A stretch of 12,237 nt of DNA, taken from the NCBI GenBank assembly GCA_017411665.1, contig JAFQPT010000056.1:1-12237 (forward strand). Direction: 5' to 3'. The position numbers were made by a program, and so were the translations under genes. The notes under the pieces were generated by a model, which made no database searches, was not told where the DNA came from, and worked only from the letters and a program-made list of their open reading frames with translations. The first letter of the stretch is position 1, and every line of letters starts with the position of its first letter. Origin of the DNA: Oscillospiraceae bacterium. Lineage in GTDB: Bacteria; Bacillota_A; Clostridia; Oscillospirales; Oscillospiraceae. Shown piece after piece: positions 1-12,220 of this stretch.

Positions 1-22
1 ATGGCAGCCCGGTTGCCAGTAT
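1..22 (+). promoter_or_regulatory. 3' end of a probable cyclic-di-GMP-I (GEMM) riboswitch, truncated by the window edge
   Basis: Bases 4-18 read GGCAGCCCGGTTGCC. This is a 4-bp stem (GGCA/TGCC, extended by a T-A pair on the outside) closing a 7-base loop GCCCGGT. It matches in length, stem and loop pattern the final hairpin of the cyclic-di-GMP-I riboswitch, whose well-studied Vibrio example reads GGTAGCGGGGTTACC. The rest of the aptamer (the GNRA-loop stem and the ligand pocket) would lie upstream, outside the window. Only about 40 bases separate the hairpin from the adhesin start and no terminator lies between, so any control here would act on translation or on a structure overlapping the aptamer. 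A weak CTCT (32-35)/AGAG (44-47) pairing next to the Shine-Dalgarno is possible. The alternative is an unrelated short hairpin. Confidence 0.62.
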
Positions 23-59
23 TTTGTGATACTCTATTCAACGAGAGGAGAACGAAATA

Positions 60-2399
60 ATGGCTAAGAAAATGAAAAAGTTTATGTCTATGATGTTGGT
101 ACTGTGCATGATGGCAAGCATGCTGAGCGTAGGCGCATTTGCAGCAGACGGCACTGTCGTGGAAAACGAAAGCACCACTGTTGACGGTGTAACTACCGAC
201 GTAACGACCACCATCACTACCACCACCGACGAAAACGGCAATGTAACTGTCAATCTGAAGATTGAAAGCACCACCGCAGGCACTGACAGCGAAGGTGTTA
301 CCATCAATGGTCAGGAAACCTATGAACAGACTACCGTTACCGACGCAAACGGCAAGCAGATTGCCAGCGACTACGTCCTGGACGGCAGCGAAACCAAGGA
401 ATGGGTAGAAGAAGACAGCGGCGATACAGCAGGTCAGCCTGTTGTGGAAGCACCCGTCGTCCCCGGTGAAACCACCGTAGCAACCGGCGGCGTTACTTCC
501 GAAACCGTGACCAATGCTGACGGCTCCGTAACCACCACTACCACCACCGATCGTACCGTAACTACTACCACCACCAAGGCAGAGGTTACCGTAAATGAAA
601 CCGATACCGGAATTGTTGGCGACAGCGAAACCGGCCTGATTGGTCCCGCTCCCGTTTATGATGAAACCGACGACGTAGTTCGCGGTTCCAACGGCAAAAT
701 TAAGGATGCCAACGGCAAGGATGGCGTGTTTGATCGCAACTACCTGTCCGGCAGCAATATGGATCCCTCCAAGTGGACCGATATTCCTCCCGAAGGCGAA
801 TACCGCTACATTGGTACCGGTGAACATAGCAAGTATTTTGTAGGCCTGGTGAAGGTTATTTATCAGAAGGACGAAGAGGGCAATACCGTTTATGACGAAA
901 ATGGTAATCCCGTCATTGAAAAGCTGGTCAATAACGTAAGCGGCGACGACCATACTTCCAATGGTGAAGTACTGGACGAAATCGTTGCCGAATACGAAGT
1001 CGATGGCGGTTTCTCCGGAAGCCGAGCACAGAACTTCATGCTGATGGATAAGGAAGGCAACCGTGTTTTTGCGTACTGCAGTGACGCTCAGACCGGTGCT
1101 GTAAACGGCAAGTGGTACAGTGTTTCCAATCTGGAAGACAGCGATTACTACACTCCCGAAGCAGAAGGTCACATCCGTTCCATCGCACTCAACGGTTACT
1201 GGGGTACTTCTGATATCGCAAAGGAAGACGGTTCTTACGAAATGGGCAGCCTGGAAAACATCAAGGCTCAGATGATCGAAGCAATCAACAACGGCGAAAT
1301 AGAACGCTACGTTCTGGTTCCCGTTCGTGATACCAGCACTGAAGGTGCAGGCAAGATCCAGGTCGATGAAAACGGCGACCCCATTTACTACGAAGAAAAG
1401 ATGGACCTGCTGGAAGTTCTGTCCGGCATGACCGCAGGCGAAGCTCTGCTGGCTACTCAGGCAGCAATCTGGAGCTTTGCAAATGGCAGCCAGGGCGCAA
1501 CCAGCGGCATTGACGGTGCAGTTGTAATTACTCCCGACTGGTACAGAAACCATCAGATTGGCTACAGTAAGAACGAAGGCGAACATCTGGACGATGCAGC
1601 AGGCATTCGAGTTGCAGCAATGTACGAATGGCTGATGAATCTGGAAGAAACCGAACAGAAGACCGTTGTTATCAACGAAAAGAACTTCGTAAAGGACGTA
1701 AGCCTGTCTATCGGCGATAAGGTTTCCGACGCAAAGGAAAACCAGGACGACAACAAGGACAACGACGTTTACAACTCCGATCTGAACTTCAAGCTGGCTT
1801 TCATTCCTGGTGAGAAGGACGATCTGCTGGTTCAGATTACCTACACCGATCTGGATGGCAATGACGTTACCGTCATTAAGCGTCTGGCAGGTGAAAACGC
1901 AGAAGGCCAGTCCTATGAGGACATCAAGCCCGAAGCAGACGGCAGCTACGTTCTGAAGGGCCTCAAGCTCAGCGAAAACAAGGACTTTGCATTCGACCTG
2001 AGACTGGAAGGCGCTCAGTATCTGGAAGACGGCGTTTACCTTTACCAGGCAGTTGGCGGTCGTGACATTTCTCAGACCTTCGTTGGCGTAGCACAGGGTT
2101 CCCGCAATGTTGACGTTTCCATCGGCGTAACCGTAAAGTTTGACGTTGATGAAAACAACAACGTAGTTGCAGAACGCACCTGGCACGACGAAGCTGATCC
2201 CGAAGAAGCTCCCGTACCTTTCAACTTCGGTCACGTAGTACCCAGACCCCTTGACAACATTCCCGATGAAGAAGTGCCTCTGGCAGACGCACCTCAGACA
2301 GGCGACGAAGCAGCAGTCTTCGCAATCCTGACTGTTCTGGCAGGCATCTCTCTGATGGCAATGCACGTTTCCGAACAGAAGCGCAAGGAAGAAGCTTGA
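60..2399 (+). CDS. Cys-Gln thioester-domain surface adhesin with sortase-type C-terminal anchor
   Basis: This is a 779-residue secreted wall protein that probably attaches covalently to host or matrix amines. Seen: a signal peptide (Lys-rich start, hydrophobic 8-25, AFA cleavage near 28); two Thr-rich stretches (45-56 and 158-172) forming a low-complexity N-terminal stalk; a thioester domain (about 220-530) with Cys340 in AYCSD and Gln467 in TQAAIW; and a C-terminal beta-rich region (about 545-730). The tail has APQTGDE (744-750), a hydrophobic span and a basic EQKRKEEA end. In this family the Cys and Gln side chains form an internal thioester that reacts with amines. The anchor motif is a variant of LPXTG. 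Start: ATG at 60 with AGGAG at 46-50. It is monocistronic, with its own terminator, and is probably controlled by the riboswitch fragment just upstream. The very regular codon choice (ACC, GAA, AAG, GGC) suggests high expression. Confidence 0.9.
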   Translation: MAKKMKKFMSMMLVLCMMASMLSVGAFAADGTVVENESTTVDGVTTDVTTTITTTTDENGNVTVNLKIESTTAGTDSEGVTINGQETYEQTTVTDANGKQIASDYVLDGSETKEWVEEDSGDTAGQPVVEAPVVPGETTVATGGVTSETVTNADGSVTTTTTTDRTVTTTTTKAEVTVNETDTGIVGDSETGLIGPAPVYDETDDVVRGSNGKIKDANGKDGVFDRNYLSGSNMDPSKWTDIPPEGEYRYIGTGEHSKYFVGLVKVIYQKDEEGNTVYDENGNPVIEKLVNNVSGDDHTSNGEVLDEIVAEYEVDGGFSGSRAQNFMLMDKEGNRVFAYCSDAQTGAVNGKWYSVSNLEDSDYYTPEAEGHIRSIALNGYWGTSDIAKEDGSYEMGSLENIKAQMIEAINNGEIERYVLVPVRDTSTEGAGKIQVDENGDPIYYEEKMDLLEVLSGMTAGEALLATQAAIWSFANGSQGATSGIDGAVVITPDWYRNHQIGYSKNEGEHLDDAAGIRVAAMYEWLMNLEETEQKTVVINEKNFVKDVSLSIGDKVSDAKENQDDNKDNDVYNSDLNFKLAFIPGEKDDLLVQITYTDLDGNDVTVIKRLAGENAEGQSYEDIKPEADGSYVLKGLKLSENKDFAFDLRLEGAQYLEDGVYLYQAVGGRDISQTFVGVAQGSRNVDVSIGVTVKFDVDENNNVVAERTWHDEADPEEAPVPFNFGHVVPRPLDNIPDEEVPLADAPQTGDEAAVFAILTVLAGISLMAMHVSEQKRKEEA

Positions 2400-2418: not shown

Positions 2419-2448
2419 AAAAAACGAGGTCTTTTGACCTCGTTTTTT
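2419..2448 (+). terminator. Rho-independent terminator after the adhesin gene
   Basis: A perfect 13-bp stem, AAAAAACGAGGTC paired with GACCTCGTTTTTT, closes a TTTT loop and ends in a T run. It lies 19 bases after the adhesin stop codon. The A-tract on the 5' side also makes it usable from the other strand, but no gene converges here. Confidence 0.93.
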
Positions 2449-4702: not shown

Positions 4703-5014
4703 ATGGGAAAGAGAAAAAGAAGCGGACTGCTGATGGGAATTTGGATGCCCGTCCTTGCGGTGATTGTTTTGCTGTGCTTTCTCAGCGGCTTATCTAATCT
4801 CAGCCGCGGCCATGCGGATGAAGATAAACAGCGTCTGGAGGATGTGGTGCGCCGTGCTGCGGTTGCCTGTTATGCTGCAGAGGGCATGTATCCGCCCAAT
4901 CTGGAGTATCTGGAAGAGCATTACGGCATTCAAGTAAACCACAGCCGCTATGTGGTGGACTATATTTCCATTGCAGAAAATCTGATGCCGGATATTACCG
5001 TATTGGAAAAGTAA
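4703..5014 (+). CDS. Small single-span pilin-like protein, family unrecognised
   Basis: This is a 103-residue protein with a basic start (KRKRSG), one membrane span (about 9-30) and a small extracytoplasmic domain with two Cys-free helices and a YPPNLEYLEEHYGI segment. That segment resembles the soluble part of small pseudopilins. I recognise no named family. Seen from the N-terminus, Gly8 followed by a hydrophobic run recalls a prepilin site, but the Glu expected at position +5 is Ile13, so normal prepilin processing is doubtful. Start: ATG 4703, four bases after the upstream stop, with only a weak GGTGAG ahead of it, which suggests translational coupling. Its position inside a pilC-to-pilT operon suggests a structural or minor component. 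Confidence 0.78.
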   Translation: MGKRKRSGLLMGIWMPVLAVIVLLCFLSGLSNLSRGHADEDKQRLEDVVRRAAVACYAAEGMYPPNLEYLEEHYGIQVNHSRYVVDYISIAENLMPDITVLEK

Positions 5015-5016
5015 TT

Positions 5017-5508
5017 ATGAGAGAACAAATCAAAAAAAGCAATAGAAGCGGACTTCTGGTGCTTCTGGTGTTTGCGGCATTTATGGTATCGGTTTTGTTG
5101 GTGCTTTTGACAGGTGCGGATGTGGTGCAGAAGCTGACTGCCCGTGACCAGGCGGGCTTTGACCGCCGTACAGCGGCCCAGTATATCGCCACCAGAACCC
5201 GACAGGCAGACTGTGCAGGCATGATTTCCGTCCGCAGTTTTGGCGGCGGAGATGCCATTGTGTTTGCAGAAGAAATCGACGGTGTGCGCTATGAAACACT
5301 GGTGTATTGCCATGAGGGCTATCTGCGGGAAATGTTTGTGGAAGCCGGCATGGAGCAGTCTCCGGAGTTTGGGGAAAAAATCATTGCCATGACGGCTTTG
5401 CAAGCAGATGACTGCGGGGGGTATTTGAAAGTGCATCTGCAAATGGCAGATGGCACTGAGGAGCGCGTGCTTCTCGATTTGCGCAGTGAGCGGGAGGGTC
5501 ATGTATGA
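5017..5508 (+). CDS. DUF4860-like single-span pilin-associated protein
   Basis: This is a 163-residue protein with a short basic cytoplasmic leader (IKKSNRSG), one membrane span (about 13-34) and an extracytoplasmic domain. From memory of the family, the combination of a RSGLLVLLVF start, a QYIATRTRQAD helix, AEEIDGVRYETLVYCHEG and a final LDLRS strand resembles DUF4860 proteins of clostridia, which have no assigned function. The helix after the span followed by beta strands is the general plan of a pseudopilin. Gly12 followed by a hydrophobic run mimics a prepilin site, but position +5 is Leu17 and not Glu. It starts two bases after the upstream stop and its own stop overlaps the next start (ATGA). 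Confidence 0.78.
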   Translation: MREQIKKSNRSGLLVLLVFAAFMVSVLLVLLTGADVVQKLTARDQAGFDRRTAAQYIATRTRQADCAGMISVRSFGGGDAIVFAEEIDGVRYETLVYCHEGYLREMFVEAGMEQSPEFGEKIIAMTALQADDCGGYLKVHLQMADGTEERVLLDLRSEREGHV

Positions 5509-5924
5509 AAAACAAAGCACCTCTGGCTCTGATGGAGCAGCTTGTGATGCTGCTGGTGTTTGCACTTGCGGCAGGCCTGTGTCTGCAGGTGTTTGTGTTG
5601 TCTGACCGTATGTCAAAACGGTTTGAAGCCAGAGACTATGCGGTCCTTGCGGTACAGAATACTGCGGAAACAATGAAAGTATGTGAAGGTGATTTGGATG
5701 CCTGTATGAAGCTGCTGGGCGGGAGTGTTGCCGACAGTCGGTGGGAAACGGGCTACGACGCGCAGTGGAGCAGTGTGCCTGCACAGCAGGCGGAATACCG
5801 CGTAATTGTGGAAGTGAGAGAAACAACGTCTCTGCTCGGGTCGGCTGATATCGCAGCTGTGACTGCAGATGGGGATGTATTATTTGCCCTTACGGTTTCC
5901 TGGCAGGAGGCTGCGTATGAATAG
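5505..5924 (+). CDS. Pilin-like single-span protein retaining the Glu of the pilin helix
   Basis: This is a 139-residue protein with a short basic leader (MKNKAP), a hydrophobic helix (about 7-33) and a small soluble domain. LALMEQLVMLLVF looks like the start of a type IV pilin helix. Glu11 would be residue +5 of the mature protein if cleavage followed Pro6, but the usual Gly at -1 is missing. It is therefore either uncleaved or cut by an unusual peptidase. It has two cysteines (59 and 66 by estimate) that could form a disulphide outside the cell. Start: ATG 5505 with GGAGGG at 5493-5498, overlapping the preceding stop by four bases. Family is otherwise unrecognised. Assignment as a minor pilin is inference from the helix and the operon. 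Confidence 0.78.
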   Translation: MKNKAPLALMEQLVMLLVFALAAGLCLQVFVLSDRMSKRFEARDYAVLAVQNTAETMKVCEGDLDACMKLLGGSVADSRWETGYDAQWSSVPAQQAEYRVIVEVRETTSLLGSADIAAVTADGDVLFALTVSWQEAAYE

Positions 5925-6321
5925 ACAGGAACAACGCAATGCCGCACCTGTTGTGGGCGGCAGCTCTCTGCTGGTGATTTTTGCGGTGCTGTGTCTGACC
6001 GTGTTTGCGCTGCTGGGGCTGAGCACCGTGCAGGCAGACGGACGATTGTCTGATATCAGCGCCCTTGCGGTTACGGATTATTATACCGCAGACAGTATGG
6101 CGGAGGAAATCCTGGCACAGCTGCGCAGTGGGGAGATACCCGACGGCGTGGCAGAGCGGGATGGAGTATATACGTATGCCTGCCGTATTTCGGATACGGG
6201 AGAGCTGCAGGTGGCAGTCAAAATAAACGGCGGAGACTATGAAATTCTGCGCTGGCAGGCAGTGACTACTTCAGAGTGGACTGCAAACGATGCGCTGTCT
6301 GTATGGGACGGAGAATCTTAA
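5917..6321 (+). CDS. Small single-span pilin-associated protein, family unrecognised
   Basis: This is a 134-residue protein with a hydrophilic leader of about 15 residues ending in VVGG, one membrane span (about 17-39) and a soluble domain with an early helix (DYYTADSMAEEILAQL) followed by strands. The plan is again that of a pseudopilin. Gly15 then SSLLV leaves Val20 at the position where pilins carry Glu; in known systems the tip pseudopilin GspK also lacks this Glu, so a tip role is possible but unproven. Start: ATG 5917 with a perfect AGGAGG at 5905-5910, overlapping the upstream gene by eight bases. A longer in-frame start at 5869 is rejected because it has no good ribosome binding site and would spoil the leader-membrane layout. 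Confidence 0.78.
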   Translation: MNRQEQRNAAPVVGGSSLLVIFAVLCLTVFALLGLSTVQADGRLSDISALAVTDYYTADSMAEEILAQLRSGEIPDGVAERDGVYTYACRISDTGELQVAVKINGGDYEILRWQAVTTSEWTANDALSVWDGES

Positions 6322-7404: not shown

Positions 7405-7438
7405 AAAAAGGACCTCAGCGAAAGCTGAGGTCCTTTTT
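7405..7438. terminator. Bidirectional Rho-independent terminator between convergent operons
   Basis: A perfect 15-bp stem, AAAAAGGACCTCAGC with GCTGAGGTCCTTTTT, is capped by a GAAA tetraloop and flanked by A and T runs on the two sides. It stands between the pilT stop (7402) and the stop of the minus-strand cyclic-di-GMP gene (7448), so it can end transcripts from both directions. Confidence 0.94.
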
Positions 7439-7447
7439 TGTTTGGGG

Positions 7448-10006
7448 TTAGTTTCTTTGCAGGAAAGACAGAGGATCGACGGGAAGATCGCCTTCGGGAA
7501 GCGCGGTCAAGCCGCGGATTTCCAGACTGCCGCTTTCCACCAGTTCGATGAAGATTTCCACCAGATTGGGGTCGAACTGCTTGCCTGCTTCCGCCCGAAG
7601 CACCTTCAGCGCATCTTCGGGAGAACCGGCCTCCTTGTAGTTACGAATGGAGGTGATGGCATCAAAGGCATCTGCGATGCAGAGGATACGGCCTGTGATG
7701 GGGATGTTATCGCCGGCCAGTCTGCGGGGATAGCCTCTGCCGTCATACCGTTCGTGGTGGGAGAATACGGCGGGGATGACGTAGTCCAGAGAAGGCAGAT
7801 ATCGAATGATATTGACTGCGTTTTCAACGTGGCCCTTCATAATTTCGTACTCATCGGCAGTCAGCTTACCGGGCTTATTGAGGATGTCTTCGCGGATACC
7901 GATTTTTCCGATGTCATGCAGCAGACCTGCTTCACGGACGATTTCCACCAAATCGCCAGACATGCCGGCTGCCTTTGCCAGCTCTGCGGCATAGTATGCC
8001 ACATTTCTGGAGTGATGGAAGGTGTAGTGGTCCTTGGCGTCGATCGCAGCGGTCAGTGCGTAAATGGTGCTTGCGTGTTCATTGTAGCCGCTCTTGTAGG
8101 AGCTGCGGTTGGTATCTCTGCGATAGTTATCAGCAGAGTACATCAAAACAGCGTTCTTGCCGGTGCGCTTTACGGTGTAAACCGTGGTGTCTGCGTTGCG
8201 GTACAGCTCCTTGGCGGTGGATGCCATGTAAGGCGCTGCGCAGATGCCGATACTCAAGGTCAGCTTGTGAGAGGAATCGCCGGAGAAGAATGCATTGATT
8301 TCTCCGACCTGTGCGGCAATGTTATCAGCCAGACATTTTGCGGAATAGATATCGTACCCGGGCAGAATCAGTGCAAATTCATCGCCGTCAATACGGGCGG
8401 CGTAGCCGTTGGTACCTACGCTGGCCTGCAGAATCCCTGCAATGCGCTGCAGAGCAAAGTCGCCTTCATGAGTGCCGTACAGCTGGTTATACAGTCTGAA
8501 ATCGTCGATATCCAACAGACACAGGGACAGAGCGTCAGTATTCTTTTCGAATTCCCGATCCAGCAGTTCCAGGAAGAATTTGAAGTTGATTAGGCCTGTC
8601 AGATCATCGCGCTGTGCATCTTCGATTGCCTTTTCATATGTGTAGGCGTTCTTAATGGCAACTGCACTGATTTCGGACACGGACTTCAAAAACTGTACGG
8701 TACCGACGCGGGTGATGGGCTTGCTCTGCTTGCCAGACATCATCACAAAGCCAATCAAATCGTCATCGCAAATCAAAGGCAGGAAATTGTCAATTTGCAG
8801 ATTCTGCAGCAAAGTCTTTTCCTTTTCCCACATGCTGCGGTACAGGGTCTTACGGGTGAAGTCCTGATAGTAAAGACATTCGTTGTTTGTTTTCAGATAA
8901 GACAGCAGAGGGTGGTCATTACGGAAACAGAAGTTTCTTTCTTCCAAAGGCTTAATGGTGTGTTCGATGTAGTAGTTGCCGTCCATGCCGCGGATGAGTA
9001 CAAACAGACGATTAACGTCAACAGCACTCTGAATCGTTTCCGCCACAAGCTGCAGGATATCTTCCATATTCAGCATATAGGTGACTTCCTCGCTGAAGTG
9101 TGCGAGGCTTTCCTTCTGCTTTTGTTCGGTGCGGGTGAAAATGGAGGTAGACACGGACTTGATGATGAGATACCATGCAGCGACCATGAGGATCAGGAAT
9201 GTGCATACGAGAATCATTAAGAAGGAGTATGTCACATTGAAGCGATTCATCAGGAAGTCCTGCAGTGTGACTGCGAAGCGGGAGAAAATCAGAAGGCTCA
9301 CCGCAACGGCAATGTAAACGAAATTGTACTTGGACAGCAGAATGCTCATGGAGAACAATTTGCGCCTATACAATGCGAAGAACACAAACAGGATATTGAC
9401 AACGCCGGAGAGCATGTCAATGGGGATGCCGATGAAGAACGGCAAAACAGTCAGAGCGTGGCCGAACAGCAGAATGAAGATACCGCATGCGATGGGGAGC
9501 AGCTGCTGGAAGGCGATGTGGTTGCCGCGGCAGTGTCGCCAGATGATGACAGCCAGCTGACTGAGGATAATGACAAAGGGAATGAAAATCAAACCGGTTG
9601 TCCAGCTGTAATGGTACAGGAACTGGGTGCTTCCGGCTGTTGTGACAACCTCGGGCAGCGGAATAAAGATACCGGTGAAGCAGTTGACGATGAACAGCAG
9701 GATAAAGATTGCCATCCAAATCTTACCGGCAAGAGACGTGCGTTTCTCCAGATATTCTGTGACGAAGTGATAATACCCGACAGCCAGCAGCATCATGCCC
9801 AACAGAGACATGTGGTGCCAGACATTTACCATGCCAAGGAGCTGAAGGCGCATGAACAGAGAGCCGCCGTTCCAGAGAATCATGATCACCAGCAGTTCCA
9901 CGAAGGTGCTGATTACAGCGTTTTTTCTGCTGTGGGGCAACAGAGAAATCAGCAGGAAGATATAACAGAATAGGGAGATACCGGTGACCCAACTATATCC
10001 AATCAT
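7448..10006 (-). CDS. Membrane GAF-GGDEF-HD-GYP protein (cyclic-di-GMP synthesis and breakdown)
   Basis: This is an 852-residue bifunctional signalling protein. About nine membrane spans fill residues 8-285, resembling the 7TM sensor region of some histidine kinases with extra spans. A GAF-like domain follows (about 300-455). The GGDEF domain (about 462-625) has DDLTGL, LDIDDF and the active-site signature DGDEF (540-544), where the first Gly is replaced by Asp but the metal and substrate residues remain. No RxxD inhibition site lies at the usual distance upstream. The HD-GYP domain (about 645-835) is complete: HSRNVA, His697-Asp698 in LLHDIGK, MKGH, HHERYDGRGYP (Gly758-Pro760) and ADAFDA, so phosphodiesterase activity is expected. 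Start: ATG at 10006 with AAGGGGG upstream, overlapping the GH3 gene by 14 bases. It is the third gene of the minus-strand operon. Which activity dominates cannot be read from sequence. Confidence 0.95.
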   Translation of the reverse strand: MIGYSWVTGISLFCYIFLLISLLPHSRKNAVISTFVELLVIMILWNGGSLFMRLQLLGMVNVWHHMSLLGMMLLAVGYYHFVTEYLEKRTSLAGKIWMAIFILLFIVNCFTGIFIPLPEVVTTAGSTQFLYHYSWTTGLIFIPFVIILSQLAVIIWRHCRGNHIAFQQLLPIACGIFILLFGHALTVLPFFIGIPIDMLSGVVNILFVFFALYRRKLFSMSILLSKYNFVYIAVAVSLLIFSRFAVTLQDFLMNRFNVTYSFLMILVCTFLILMVAAWYLIIKSVSTSIFTRTEQKQKESLAHFSEEVTYMLNMEDILQLVAETIQSAVDVNRLFVLIRGMDGNYYIEHTIKPLEERNFCFRNDHPLLSYLKTNNECLYYQDFTRKTLYRSMWEKEKTLLQNLQIDNFLPLICDDDLIGFVMMSGKQSKPITRVGTVQFLKSVSEISAVAIKNAYTYEKAIEDAQRDDLTGLINFKFFLELLDREFEKNTDALSLCLLDIDDFRLYNQLYGTHEGDFALQRIAGILQASVGTNGYAARIDGDEFALILPGYDIYSAKCLADNIAAQVGEINAFFSGDSSHKLTLSIGICAAPYMASTAKELYRNADTTVYTVKRTGKNAVLMYSADNYRRDTNRSSYKSGYNEHASTIYALTAAIDAKDHYTFHHSRNVAYYAAELAKAAGMSGDLVEIVREAGLLHDIGKIGIREDILNKPGKLTADEYEIMKGHVENAVNIIRYLPSLDYVIPAVFSHHERYDGRGYPRRLAGDNIPITGRILCIADAFDAITSIRNYKEAGSPEDALKVLRAEAGKQFDPNLVEIFIELVESGSLEIRGLTALPEGDLPVDPLSFLQRN

Positions 10007-11633
10007 TCAGATATGCCCCCTTTCCGGTGTTTTCGTACATATGACATGCCATCAAATCATTGATTTCACAGCTTTCCGGATTCATGGTACGGATGGTCTG
10101 TCCGTACTTCTGCTCATACAGCTCGAAGGTACCGCATTTGAGCAGGGTAATCTTCAAGGGGTCTACACCCAGAATCTTCTTCAGGTCTTCATAATCCTGG
10201 TCCAGATAACGGAAGTAGATGCCCAGCTGTTCCTGCAGGATGCGGATACTGATGGCGCTGTTGAGCAGATTGCTGCGCTGCAGCTCTACATACAGGTGCA
10301 GGTAGGGACGGTAATTATCGGTGTATTCCTTCTTGGCGGTCCATGCTGCAATCGGCAGTCTGGACAGCTGGATGGCCTGATTGATGGACTTTTCCGTAAT
10401 ACGGGTGAAGCCCGCAATGTCGATAATCTGGGGAACACGGTCGATGTACTGGAATCTGGGAATGGAATTTCCTTCCAGCTGGCTGCCGATGCCGATGCAG
10501 CGGAATACGTCACCTACGCGATAACGTGCAAATGCGCCGCCCTTCAGAACGGTCAGTACCAGCTCATAGATTCCGCCGGGCACAACTTCGTCCCAGAGTA
10601 CGGTTCTGGGCTGATAGTTGGGGTCGACCATGTTCTTATCCAGTTCTTCCTCGGGGATGAATTCATAGAAGCAGGGGTCGGGGAAGAAGTATACGCCTTC
10701 GCGGCTCCAGGTTTCACAGCCAATGCAGGTAGGCTCAGTGCCTGCGAAGATTTCCATGGGCGTAATGCCCCACATTTCTTCCAAATCGGCCTTGTAGCAG
10801 CGATTGTCGGTGCCTGCATACATAAAGCCCTTCAGATGGAACAGGTCCTTGGGGAGCAGCTCGCGGTTTTCCTTCTTGCATTTTTTCTTGGCAATCAGAT
10901 ACCGCAGCATCATCTTGGGAGAGGTACCCAGAATTTTTTCCTTCAGACTCTTCTGACCGCTCTGCATGGAAGTGATGCTCTGGCTGACGTAATACAGTAC
11001 GCTGCCCGGACCGAAGAAGTATTCAATGCCCTTCTTCATGCCCAACTTGAAGCCCTGTACATTGCGCTCCTTAAAGGTCATGTTCACCGCGTCCTTGACG
11101 GAGGGCAGGAAATCAATGTCGATTTCGTCCTTGAACAGCAGGGGCAGCAGACCGGTGACGTAGGGCAGGGGTGCCAGTGCGTACAGCATATGGTCGGTGA
11201 CGCTGATGTCAAACTCACCCTTTTTGCGACTGGTGGAGAGAATCATGGCAGTCATCAGATTGTGCTTGAAGGTCTCCAGCATGCCCTTGGTGTAAGGTGC
11301 AGTCTTGATGGGATGTACGCCGCCTTCCCATGTGGTCTGTACCCAGAGCACAGGGTCGCATGGCAGAGCGCTGGTCTGCTTGGACAGCAGTGTGGGAGCA
11401 TAGTCTTCATAGGTGGTCAGAGGAACCATTTCACGGAACTCTTCAACGGTGTGAGGATACTTTCCCTTCAGAATACTTTGGCCCAGACCGCTGGCAGACC
11501 ACAGCTCGATCTGTTCCAGCAGCAAGCGCTTCTGAATGGCCATGAATTCCTCGGAAGTCAGGGTCAGAAAACCGCAGTATTCTTCCCAAATCTCTTCTTT
11601 GGAGTATTGATGGAGTTTTTCTTGGAATCTCAC
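9993..11633 (-). CDS. GH3-family acyl-adenylating enzyme homologue with an altered nucleotide loop
   Basis: This is a 546-residue, apparently soluble protein. It matches GH3 enzymes (ANL superfamily), which activate a carboxylate with ATP and pass it to an amine, as in plant auxin-amino acid conjugation; bacterial members are mostly uncharacterised. Seen: PLTTYEDYAP near the N-terminus, FAGTEPTCIG (296-305), YRVGDV (371-376) and FQYIDRVPQIIDIAGFTRI with the following ITEKSINQAI, all at the expected order and spacing. The first ATP-binding motif, normally like SSGTTGGKPK, is replaced by TTWEGGVHPIK (100-110), so adenylation may be altered or lost. Start: GTG 11633, its TG shared with the upstream stop (GTGA), with AGGAGG at 11641-11646. 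It overlaps the next gene by 14 bases. Substrates are unknown. Confidence 0.85.
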   Translation of the reverse strand: MRFQEKLHQYSKEEIWEEYCGFLTLTSEEFMAIQKRLLLEQIELWSASGLGQSILKGKYPHTVEEFREMVPLTTYEDYAPTLLSKQTSALPCDPVLWVQTTWEGGVHPIKTAPYTKGMLETFKHNLMTAMILSTSRKKGEFDISVTDHMLYALAPLPYVTGLLPLLFKDEIDIDFLPSVKDAVNMTFKERNVQGFKLGMKKGIEYFFGPGSVLYYVSQSITSMQSGQKSLKEKILGTSPKMMLRYLIAKKKCKKENRELLPKDLFHLKGFMYAGTDNRCYKADLEEMWGITPMEIFAGTEPTCIGCETWSREGVYFFPDPCFYEFIPEEELDKNMVDPNYQPRTVLWDEVVPGGIYELVLTVLKGGAFARYRVGDVFRCIGIGSQLEGNSIPRFQYIDRVPQIIDIAGFTRITEKSINQAIQLSRLPIAAWTAKKEYTDNYRPYLHLYVELQRSNLLNSAISIRILQEQLGIYFRYLDQDYEDLKKILGVDPLKITLLKCGTFELYEQKYGQTIRTMNPESCEINDLMACHMYENTGKGAYLNDWI

Positions 11634-12220
11634 GTGTCATCCTCCTCTCCGCCCGGAATGTGAAAGGTTTCTACAGCCAGACGGATACTTTCTCCTGTGG
11701 GGATCAAAAAGGGGATTTTCTTCTGATATGCTTCATAATCGCAAAATGTTCTGGGGAACGTAATGCGATCTTGAAACCATGCGTAGGCAAGGTTCATCAG
11801 AGAAAAGGCCATACCGTGCATCAGCAGGTCGCTTGGCAGGGCTGCTGCACCAAGCAGCAGATACATGCCGAAGAAACACAGGATGCCCGGGTGTCGGCAC
11901 AGGGCGTAGACACCGCCGTCGTAGACACGGCGGTCGTTTGTTTGTTCTGTATAAGTTGCTTTGAACGGCAAAGCAAAAAATAAGCAGTAAATCAGTGCGG
12001 CAAAACAGAGTATTCCGCCAATCAGCAGCAGGACATCTGCGATGCCCGAAAAGGCATGCATCATAATCGCAGTGCGGAGATCCAGCAGGGTTGCGGCACC
12101 GACCAGCAGTGTGCCCAGCATGAAAAAGCTGCGGGGCAGGGAATGCTGCCATTTGAAGCTGTTGATATCATACAGCAGGTAAAGGAAAAAACCTGCTGTT
12201 CCCAGACAAAGTGAAATCAT
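11630..12220 (-). CDS. ICMT/PEMT-like integral membrane methyltransferase
   Basis: This is a 196-residue protein with about five membrane spans (3-19, 32-48, 60-84, 113-129, 131-148). The core signature VYDGGVYALCRHPG (Arg109-His110-Pro111) followed by YEAYQKKIPFLIP matches isoprenylcysteine carboxyl methyltransferases and phospholipid N-methyltransferases, which bind S-adenosylmethionine at the RHP site and methylate lipid-linked substrates within the membrane. The acidic pair that often follows (EE before the FG..Y motif) is changed to QDR, so substrate and activity are uncertain. Start: ATG 12220 with AAAGGAGA upstream (12224-12232). It is the first visible gene of the minus-strand operon; its stop overlaps the GTG start of the GH3 gene by four bases. 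The promoter lies outside the window. Confidence 0.85.
   Translation of the reverse strand: MISLCLGTAGFFLYLLYDINSFKWQHSLPRSFFMLGTLLVGAATLLDLRTAIMMHAFSGIADVLLLIGGILCFAALIYCLFFALPFKATYTEQTNDRRVYDGGVYALCRHPGILCFFGMYLLLGAAALPSDLLMHGMAFSLMNLAYAWFQDRITFPRTFCDYEAYQKKIPFLIPTGESIRLAVETFHIPGGEEDDT

Follow-up and report, generated by a model that had tools for sequence, protein, structure and literature searches.

The leader of a surface adhesin gene at the start of the analysed DNA (the window, 12,237 nucleotides from an Oscillospiraceae bacterium) is most probably an ON-type c-di-GMP-I (GEMM-I) riboswitch that acts on translation. The leader begins with the 3' tail of the aptamer, relatives carry whole aptamers, a covarying hairpin spans the start codon, and one strand is common to this hairpin and to aptamer helix P1. 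In the proposed mechanism, the aptamer tail (bases 15-27, which comprise base 16, presumably the ligand-contact base C92 in the Vc2 numbering, and the 3' strand of P1) would fold without ligand onto bases 52-64, so that the ribosome-binding site, the AUG and codon 2 would be buried and translation would be off. Binding of c-di-GMP would hold C92 in the pocket and let P1 form with a partner strand that lies upstream of the window; the tail would then leave the start codon, the adhesin would be translated, and high c-di-GMP would bring the thioester adhesin to the cell surface. We infer that the ligand is c-di-GMP, that the sign is ON and that translation rather than transcription is controlled. 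The kind of sensor is already known, and the switching scheme is readable from the sequence. The coordinates of the features are listed in Table 1.

Table 1 Features of the window that bear on the predicted riboswitch
Feature	Coordinates	Strand	Basis or remark
Putative c-di-GMP-I aptamer, 3' end	1..17	+	RF01051 match, tail profile, comparison with L031, whole aptamers in relatives
P1, 3' strand	17..25	+	By homology; 5' partner upstream of the window
Predicted OFF hairpin	15..64	+	Helices 15-18/61-64 and 20-27/52-59, inner helix 32-35/44-47
Ribosome-binding site AGAGGAG	44..50	+	Read from the sequence, 9 bases before the ATG at 60
Putative surface adhesin, 779 aa	60..2399	+	Pfam TED; signal peptide, Thr-rich part, sortase signal
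Inverted repeat with T-run, terminator-like, after the adhesin gene	2421..2446	+	By eye; absent from the terminator scan
Membrane protein, GAF + GGDEF + HD-GYP	7448..10006	-	Pfam GGDEF 1.1e-31, HD_5 1.2e-36

The thioester domain of the adhesin was located at residues 338-526 (Pfam TED, PF08341; 29.6 bits, cut-off 22), and Cys340 and Gln467, which we take to be the residues forming the thioester bond, were invariant in 36 aligned homologues (alignment A1). The signal peptide at one end of the protein and the APQTG-type sortase signal with its hydrophobic tail at the other were recognized by eye. Together with the Cys/Gln-bearing domain, they mark the predicted product as a TED surface adhesin. 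A PDB search with the adhesin alignment gave four weak matches (E 0.4-0.5), all to one unrelated protein.

When bases 1-60 alone were scanned against Rfam, positions 68-87 of the RF01051 model were aligned to bases 1-20 with 10.7 bits (E 3.1 over 4227 families). This match is truncated at its 5' side, lies below the RF01051 gathering score of 35 and is by itself not significant; the scan of the whole window at E 10 listed no riboswitch, the 1-20 match being absent as well, and the matches for which it gave alignments were located on terminator-like hairpins. Only the last 20 model positions are inside the window, and the remainder of the aptamer lies upstream of it. Rfam aligns bases 3-5 and 8-14 with the 3' strand of helix P3, whose partner strands are upstream of the window, and bases 15-17 with the end of the pocket; G20, A47 and C92 are the pocket bases named in the available part of PMC11218506. 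Since the window opens inside the RNA, the proof of the aptamer has to be comparative. A profile of the relatives' aptamer tails, built without the one tail identical to that of the window, scored bases 1-20 at 30.7, and the best of 138,306 background 20-mers reached 16.3. Counted with its relatives, and only then, the predicted c-di-GMP-I aptamer ending at the window start is well above chance, and the window's own upstream DNA would hold the rest of it. It is extremely unlikely that the tail alone survives as a decayed or chance remnant whose upstream part has been lost: the aptamer body does lie outside the window, but the profile score is far above all background 20-mers, and the 59-base leader of L031 (G252:C98) agrees with the window at 56/59 positions and shows no difference over the first 37. 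This leader follows a complete aptamer of 76.8 bits which ends at the base corresponding to that of the window.

The relatives were collected by a protein search with the adhesin, which gave 186 homologues at E <= 1e-3 (the best 120 of the 186 were listed). Five loci of A1 were found in genome contigs. One of them, L001 from an Oscillospiraceae MAG of goat rectum, contains a tandem of three adhesin-type genes, and each leader includes a c-di-GMP-I aptamer; the first of these aptamers scored 31.0 bits where the locus edge cuts it and 69.6 bits when whole in the genome, and the aptamer tail and the spacer to the ATG resemble those of the window. No c-di-GMP-I aptamer was found in the other four loci (L002-L005), though the gene start of L005 may lie off its contig. 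A1 matched 5 of 400 genomes in the family of the L001 genome and 4 of 394 in its order, one genome being common to both. These eight genomes contain 11 adhesin genes (two each in G001, G197 and G252; one each in G205, G314, G573, G003 and G563), which is an undercount because only two candidates were scored per genome and copies were missed. Of these genes, 9/11 are immediately preceded by an RF01051 aptamer on their own strand, in tandem in the case of G314, and the genomes of G003 and G563 have an adhesin without any RF01051 match. No relative was found in viral contigs. The predicted N-terminus of a metagenome homologue (P0022), MMTARLPVF..., is like the read-through of the aptamer tail of L026, MTARLPVF....

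Seventeen leaders, the window and 16 relatives, were aligned (alignment A2). The relatives were those of the 26 RF01051 matches that precede an ATGGC start; left out were L013 (16.5 bits, below the cut-off), L028, L032, L034 and L037 (another leader type), and L029, L033, L036, L039 and L041 (the G314 tandem arrays). Neither the G075 arrays nor the G573 leaders are part of A2. The search for an aptamer upstream, run on the relatives, found whole aptamers before the adhesin in L001, L027, L031 and others, each ending at the base that corresponds to the window's. Together with the tail match, they bear out the proposal of an earlier note on this DNA that the first bases of the adhesin leader are the 3' end of a c-di-GMP-I riboswitch. 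The variant family RF03167 (c-di-GMP-I-GGC) was considered and rejected: its criterion, read from the name and the model consensus, is a G instead of an A at pocket position 47, and the relatives have A47. Two L001 aptamers were labelled RF03167 (69.8 and 65.8 bits), and the same places scored 75.3 and 74.0 bits with RF01051. A scan of four genomes for class II (RF01786) gave no match, a result that carries no weight because the control gave none anywhere either.

The earlier note had also described a GGCA/TGCC stem around the 7-base loop GCCCGGT at bases 4-18. The letters are present, but at 3-6, 7-13 and 14-17, one base off, and taking them for the last hairpin of the GEMM-I aptamer was a misreading, as these bases are the 3' side of P3 and the pocket end. 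The observation is partly confirmed and its interpretation partly supported. Taken alone, bases 2-18 can form a 7-bp hairpin (bases 1-20, -8.9 kcal/mol, z -2.0; 10/200 shuffles as good). As an aptamer element the GGCA/TGCC hairpin was rejected: in the 17 leaders of A2, pair 6-14 is broken in nine and pair 4-16 in three, and the 82.4% of cells paired with no double change were matched by 500/500 shuffles. The same hairpin raises the question of a c-di-GMP-I riboswitch that terminates transcription, in which the 2-18 hairpin and GTATTTTG would be an intrinsic terminator. The hairpin was listed as terminator-like by a pattern scan and occurs in the minimum fold of bases 1-66, but the three matches of that scan are at the shuffle level (2.7 expected), the T-run is short and interrupted, and the hairpin is not conserved, so that termination is very unlikely.

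Control of translation is suggested by the hairpin predicted over the start codon. Bases 13-66 fold into one hairpin of -17.8 kcal/mol (z -4.54; 1/200 shuffles as good), which in this prediction covers AGAGGAG in part, along with the U and G of the AUG and the GC of codon 2. In the minimum fold of bases 1-66 (-18.9) the helices 20-27/52-59 and 32-35/44-47 are kept, while the 2-18 hairpin displaces the four outer pairs and the AUG and codon 2 are open; P3 should keep bases 3-14 paired in the actual RNA. A similar hairpin between the GCC tail and the start region was found in 15/15 relatives folded (L012 is not among these), and L008, L075 and L076 (the last two in G573) form a similar hairpin with different letters. 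Among other ORF starts, 1/58 folds as strongly, with its start codon left free. On A2, 95.6% of the cells of the hairpin are paired, against 20-42% when it is slid, and there are nine double-change cells; the cells paired and the score were reached by 0/500 shuffles. Two measures were weaker, the three double-change pairs being reached by 34/500 shuffles and the further pair types by 292/500. As the choice of rows with an ATGGC start favours the four outer pairs, the count was repeated without them: 93.0% of cells were paired with nine double-change cells (0/500 shuffles), and the weaker measures were reached by 32/500 (double-change pairs) and 262/500 (pair types). An exact-seed search for inverted repeats of at least 6 in bases 1-120 gave one, 13-18/112-117, and missed the OFF hairpin because of the G-U pairs or short arms of its helices. 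The position of the ribosome-binding site is conserved in the relatives. Met-Ala starts were found in 64 of the 114 M-starting homologues among the matches listed and are not universal in the family. In 15 of the 16 relatives the free-fold minimum coincides with the OFF state, the sixteenth, L008, being misaligned in A2. Over the aptamer-side fold (P1 allowed, not forced), the OFF state has an advantage of 3.8-13.6 kcal/mol, and the ligand must therefore act during transcription or add energy that is absent from the model.

On the aptamer side, P3 as drawn in Rfam has 93.5% of its cells paired and five double-change cells, with a score reached by 0/500 shuffles (17 leaders, the 5' P3 strand of the window itself being absent from the count). 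An A at pocket position 20 is the mark of cGAMP sensors. G20 and A47 were found in all 16 relatives, in 13 by script and in L038, L040 and L042 by eye, where the core GGCAAACC was read inside the listed stretch (the script pattern began too early), and C92 (C16 of the window) is invariant in 17/17 leaders. Although GEMM-I members which bind cGAMP exist (the available part of PMC8835794), these bases make it highly improbable that the aptamer senses cGAMP or another cyclic dinucleotide, with the proviso that the window's own base 20 lies outside the window.

P1 is less strongly marked. L007 has an upstream GAAATACATG that is the complement of CAGTATTTC at the place of the P1 3' strand. Over the leaders, 82.5% of the P1 cells are paired, but the covariation is weak (score reached by 55/500 shuffles, cells paired by 65/500), partly because bulges shift between leaders. 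Duplexes of a leader's own strands beat swapped ones in a test which ignores relatedness (6/20000 for P1 and 4/20000 for the OFF hairpin; 15 and 22 of 20000 after removal of duplicates, relatedness still ignored). The OFF hairpin uses as its 5' strand the P1 3' strand, which makes P1 and the full hairpin mutually exclusive. This bears on the sign of the switch. In an OFF-type translational switch, the ligand-bound aptamer would hinder initiation, and OFF designs seem to coexist with this one, as the leaders L032 and L034 (G197, G205) have their ribosome-binding site in the presumed P1 strand (by eye). In the window, however, a single strand is contested by P1 and the start-codon hairpin, the start is freed when P1 forms, and an OFF switch is quite unlikely here. 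The ON reading is thus preferred.

Aptamers of this class were also seen before other surface-protein genes. G005 has a c-di-GMP-I aptamer ahead of a VWA/GBS104 tip-pilin-like gene and a sortase, with a transglutaminase gene further on, and the N-terminus of one further gene product resembles the T2SSF protein of the window (by eye). Ten products behind such aptamers were scanned, excluding those behind L008, L030 and the L028/L032/L034/L037 type, and they have TED, Cna_B, SLH, FctA or tip-pilin-like domains. A second leader type, at L032 (- strand, near 725) and L034 (+ strand, near 1569), precedes a secreted protein which resembles the window's transglutaminase-like gene product (by eye); with the ribosome-binding site in the presumed P1 strand (ACTC/GAGT), it would be an OFF switch beside ON switches in the same genomes. 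As a separate observation, G075 has 17 c-di-GMP-I matches at E <= 0.001 (16 over the cut-off) in arrays of 5, 5, 4 and 3 (loci L052, L055, L056, L059, L061 and L063; the array loci of G314 are L071 and L074). Pocket position 20 within arrays reads G, G, A, A, C or G, G, A, and because of the A these arrays may mix sensors. The G075 arrays have more aptamers each than the doublets (347) and triplets (12) counted in the available part of PMC9481103, and tandem c-di-GMP-I arrays are enriched before transglutaminase-like genes of Bacillota according to the available part of PMC12452182.

Downstream of the adhesin gene, a transglutaminase-like gene is followed by a type II secretion/type IV pilus-like cluster. 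Rfam gave no second riboswitch before the start of the gene at 2502. Four small genes of the cluster (4703-6318) have the look of minor pilins; one matched Pfam (DUF4860), and the other three had no Pfam match at E <= 0.01. A perfect inverted repeat with T-runs on both strands (7406-7442) lies between the PilT-like gene and the convergent GGDEF/HD-GYP gene; it is likely a shared terminator, which drew chance sRNA matches. The HD-GYP part of this convergent gene's product aligned with the solved phosphodiesterase 4mcw (E 3e-36) across the HD and HHExxDGxGYP motifs, so that the protein is a probable c-di-GMP phosphodiesterase; its GGDEF motif reads DGDEF, which makes cyclase activity uncertain. 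The gene lies 5 kb from the end of the adhesin gene and 7.4 kb from the leader, and its link to the leader, raised in the earlier note, is only suggestive, as nearness is no proof of a private circuit. Beyond it, a GH3-family protein (Pfam GH3 domains; 9996-11633, - strand) adjoins a small membrane protein (11630-12220, - strand). The GH3 family is best known from plant hormone conjugation.

The predicted switch can be compared with three known systems. Like RF01051, its tail corresponds to the last stretch of the model and the relatives' whole aptamers have the canonical pocket bases; the window differs in holding this tail only and in its very short platform, with 42 bases from base 18 to the ATG. 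Class I riboswitches that sequester translation signals are known, and Bc1 of Bacillus thuringiensis is a class I example in which a stem can trap the ribosome-binding site and the AUG (PMC11218506, available part). According to the same source, the platform of Bc1 is up to 220 bp long with two terminators, and the trap occurs with ligand bound, whereas the trap predicted here forms without ligand and no terminator is conserved. The third is Clostridioides difficile. The earlier note states that such riboswitches are known to control adhesins and pili in clostridia; those described in the available part of PMC11477304 belong to class II and not class I. There, c-di-GMP acts via class II riboswitches to raise a collagen-binding protein and the thioester-domain protein CD3246. 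The CD3246 and CD2831 system has in common with the window a thioester surface adhesin that c-di-GMP raises by way of a leader RNA; the RNA class differs, II against I, and the two classes are described as not homologous (PMC12452182, available part). No class I switch on a thioester adhesin was found in the available parts of PMC11477304, PMC9481103 and PMC11218506, which leaves its absence from print unproven.

Whether these leaders represent a conserved design of gut clostridia is, in our estimate, evenly balanced. Such a design would be a minimal c-di-GMP-I ON switch for several kinds of surface protein, in which the partner of codon 2 in the OFF state is C92 itself; assembly of the pocket would thereby release the start codon in one event, and the Met-Ala start would be shaped by the RNA, in parallel to the class II control of a thioester adhesin in C. 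difficile. Because the leader is short and both states are spelled out in it, the model is easy to test. It would tie c-di-GMP directly to the thioester surface adhesins of gut bacteria that are mostly known from assemblies alone, and it suggests that one kind of adhesin has come under two unrelated classes of c-di-GMP RNA, both acting with the same sign.
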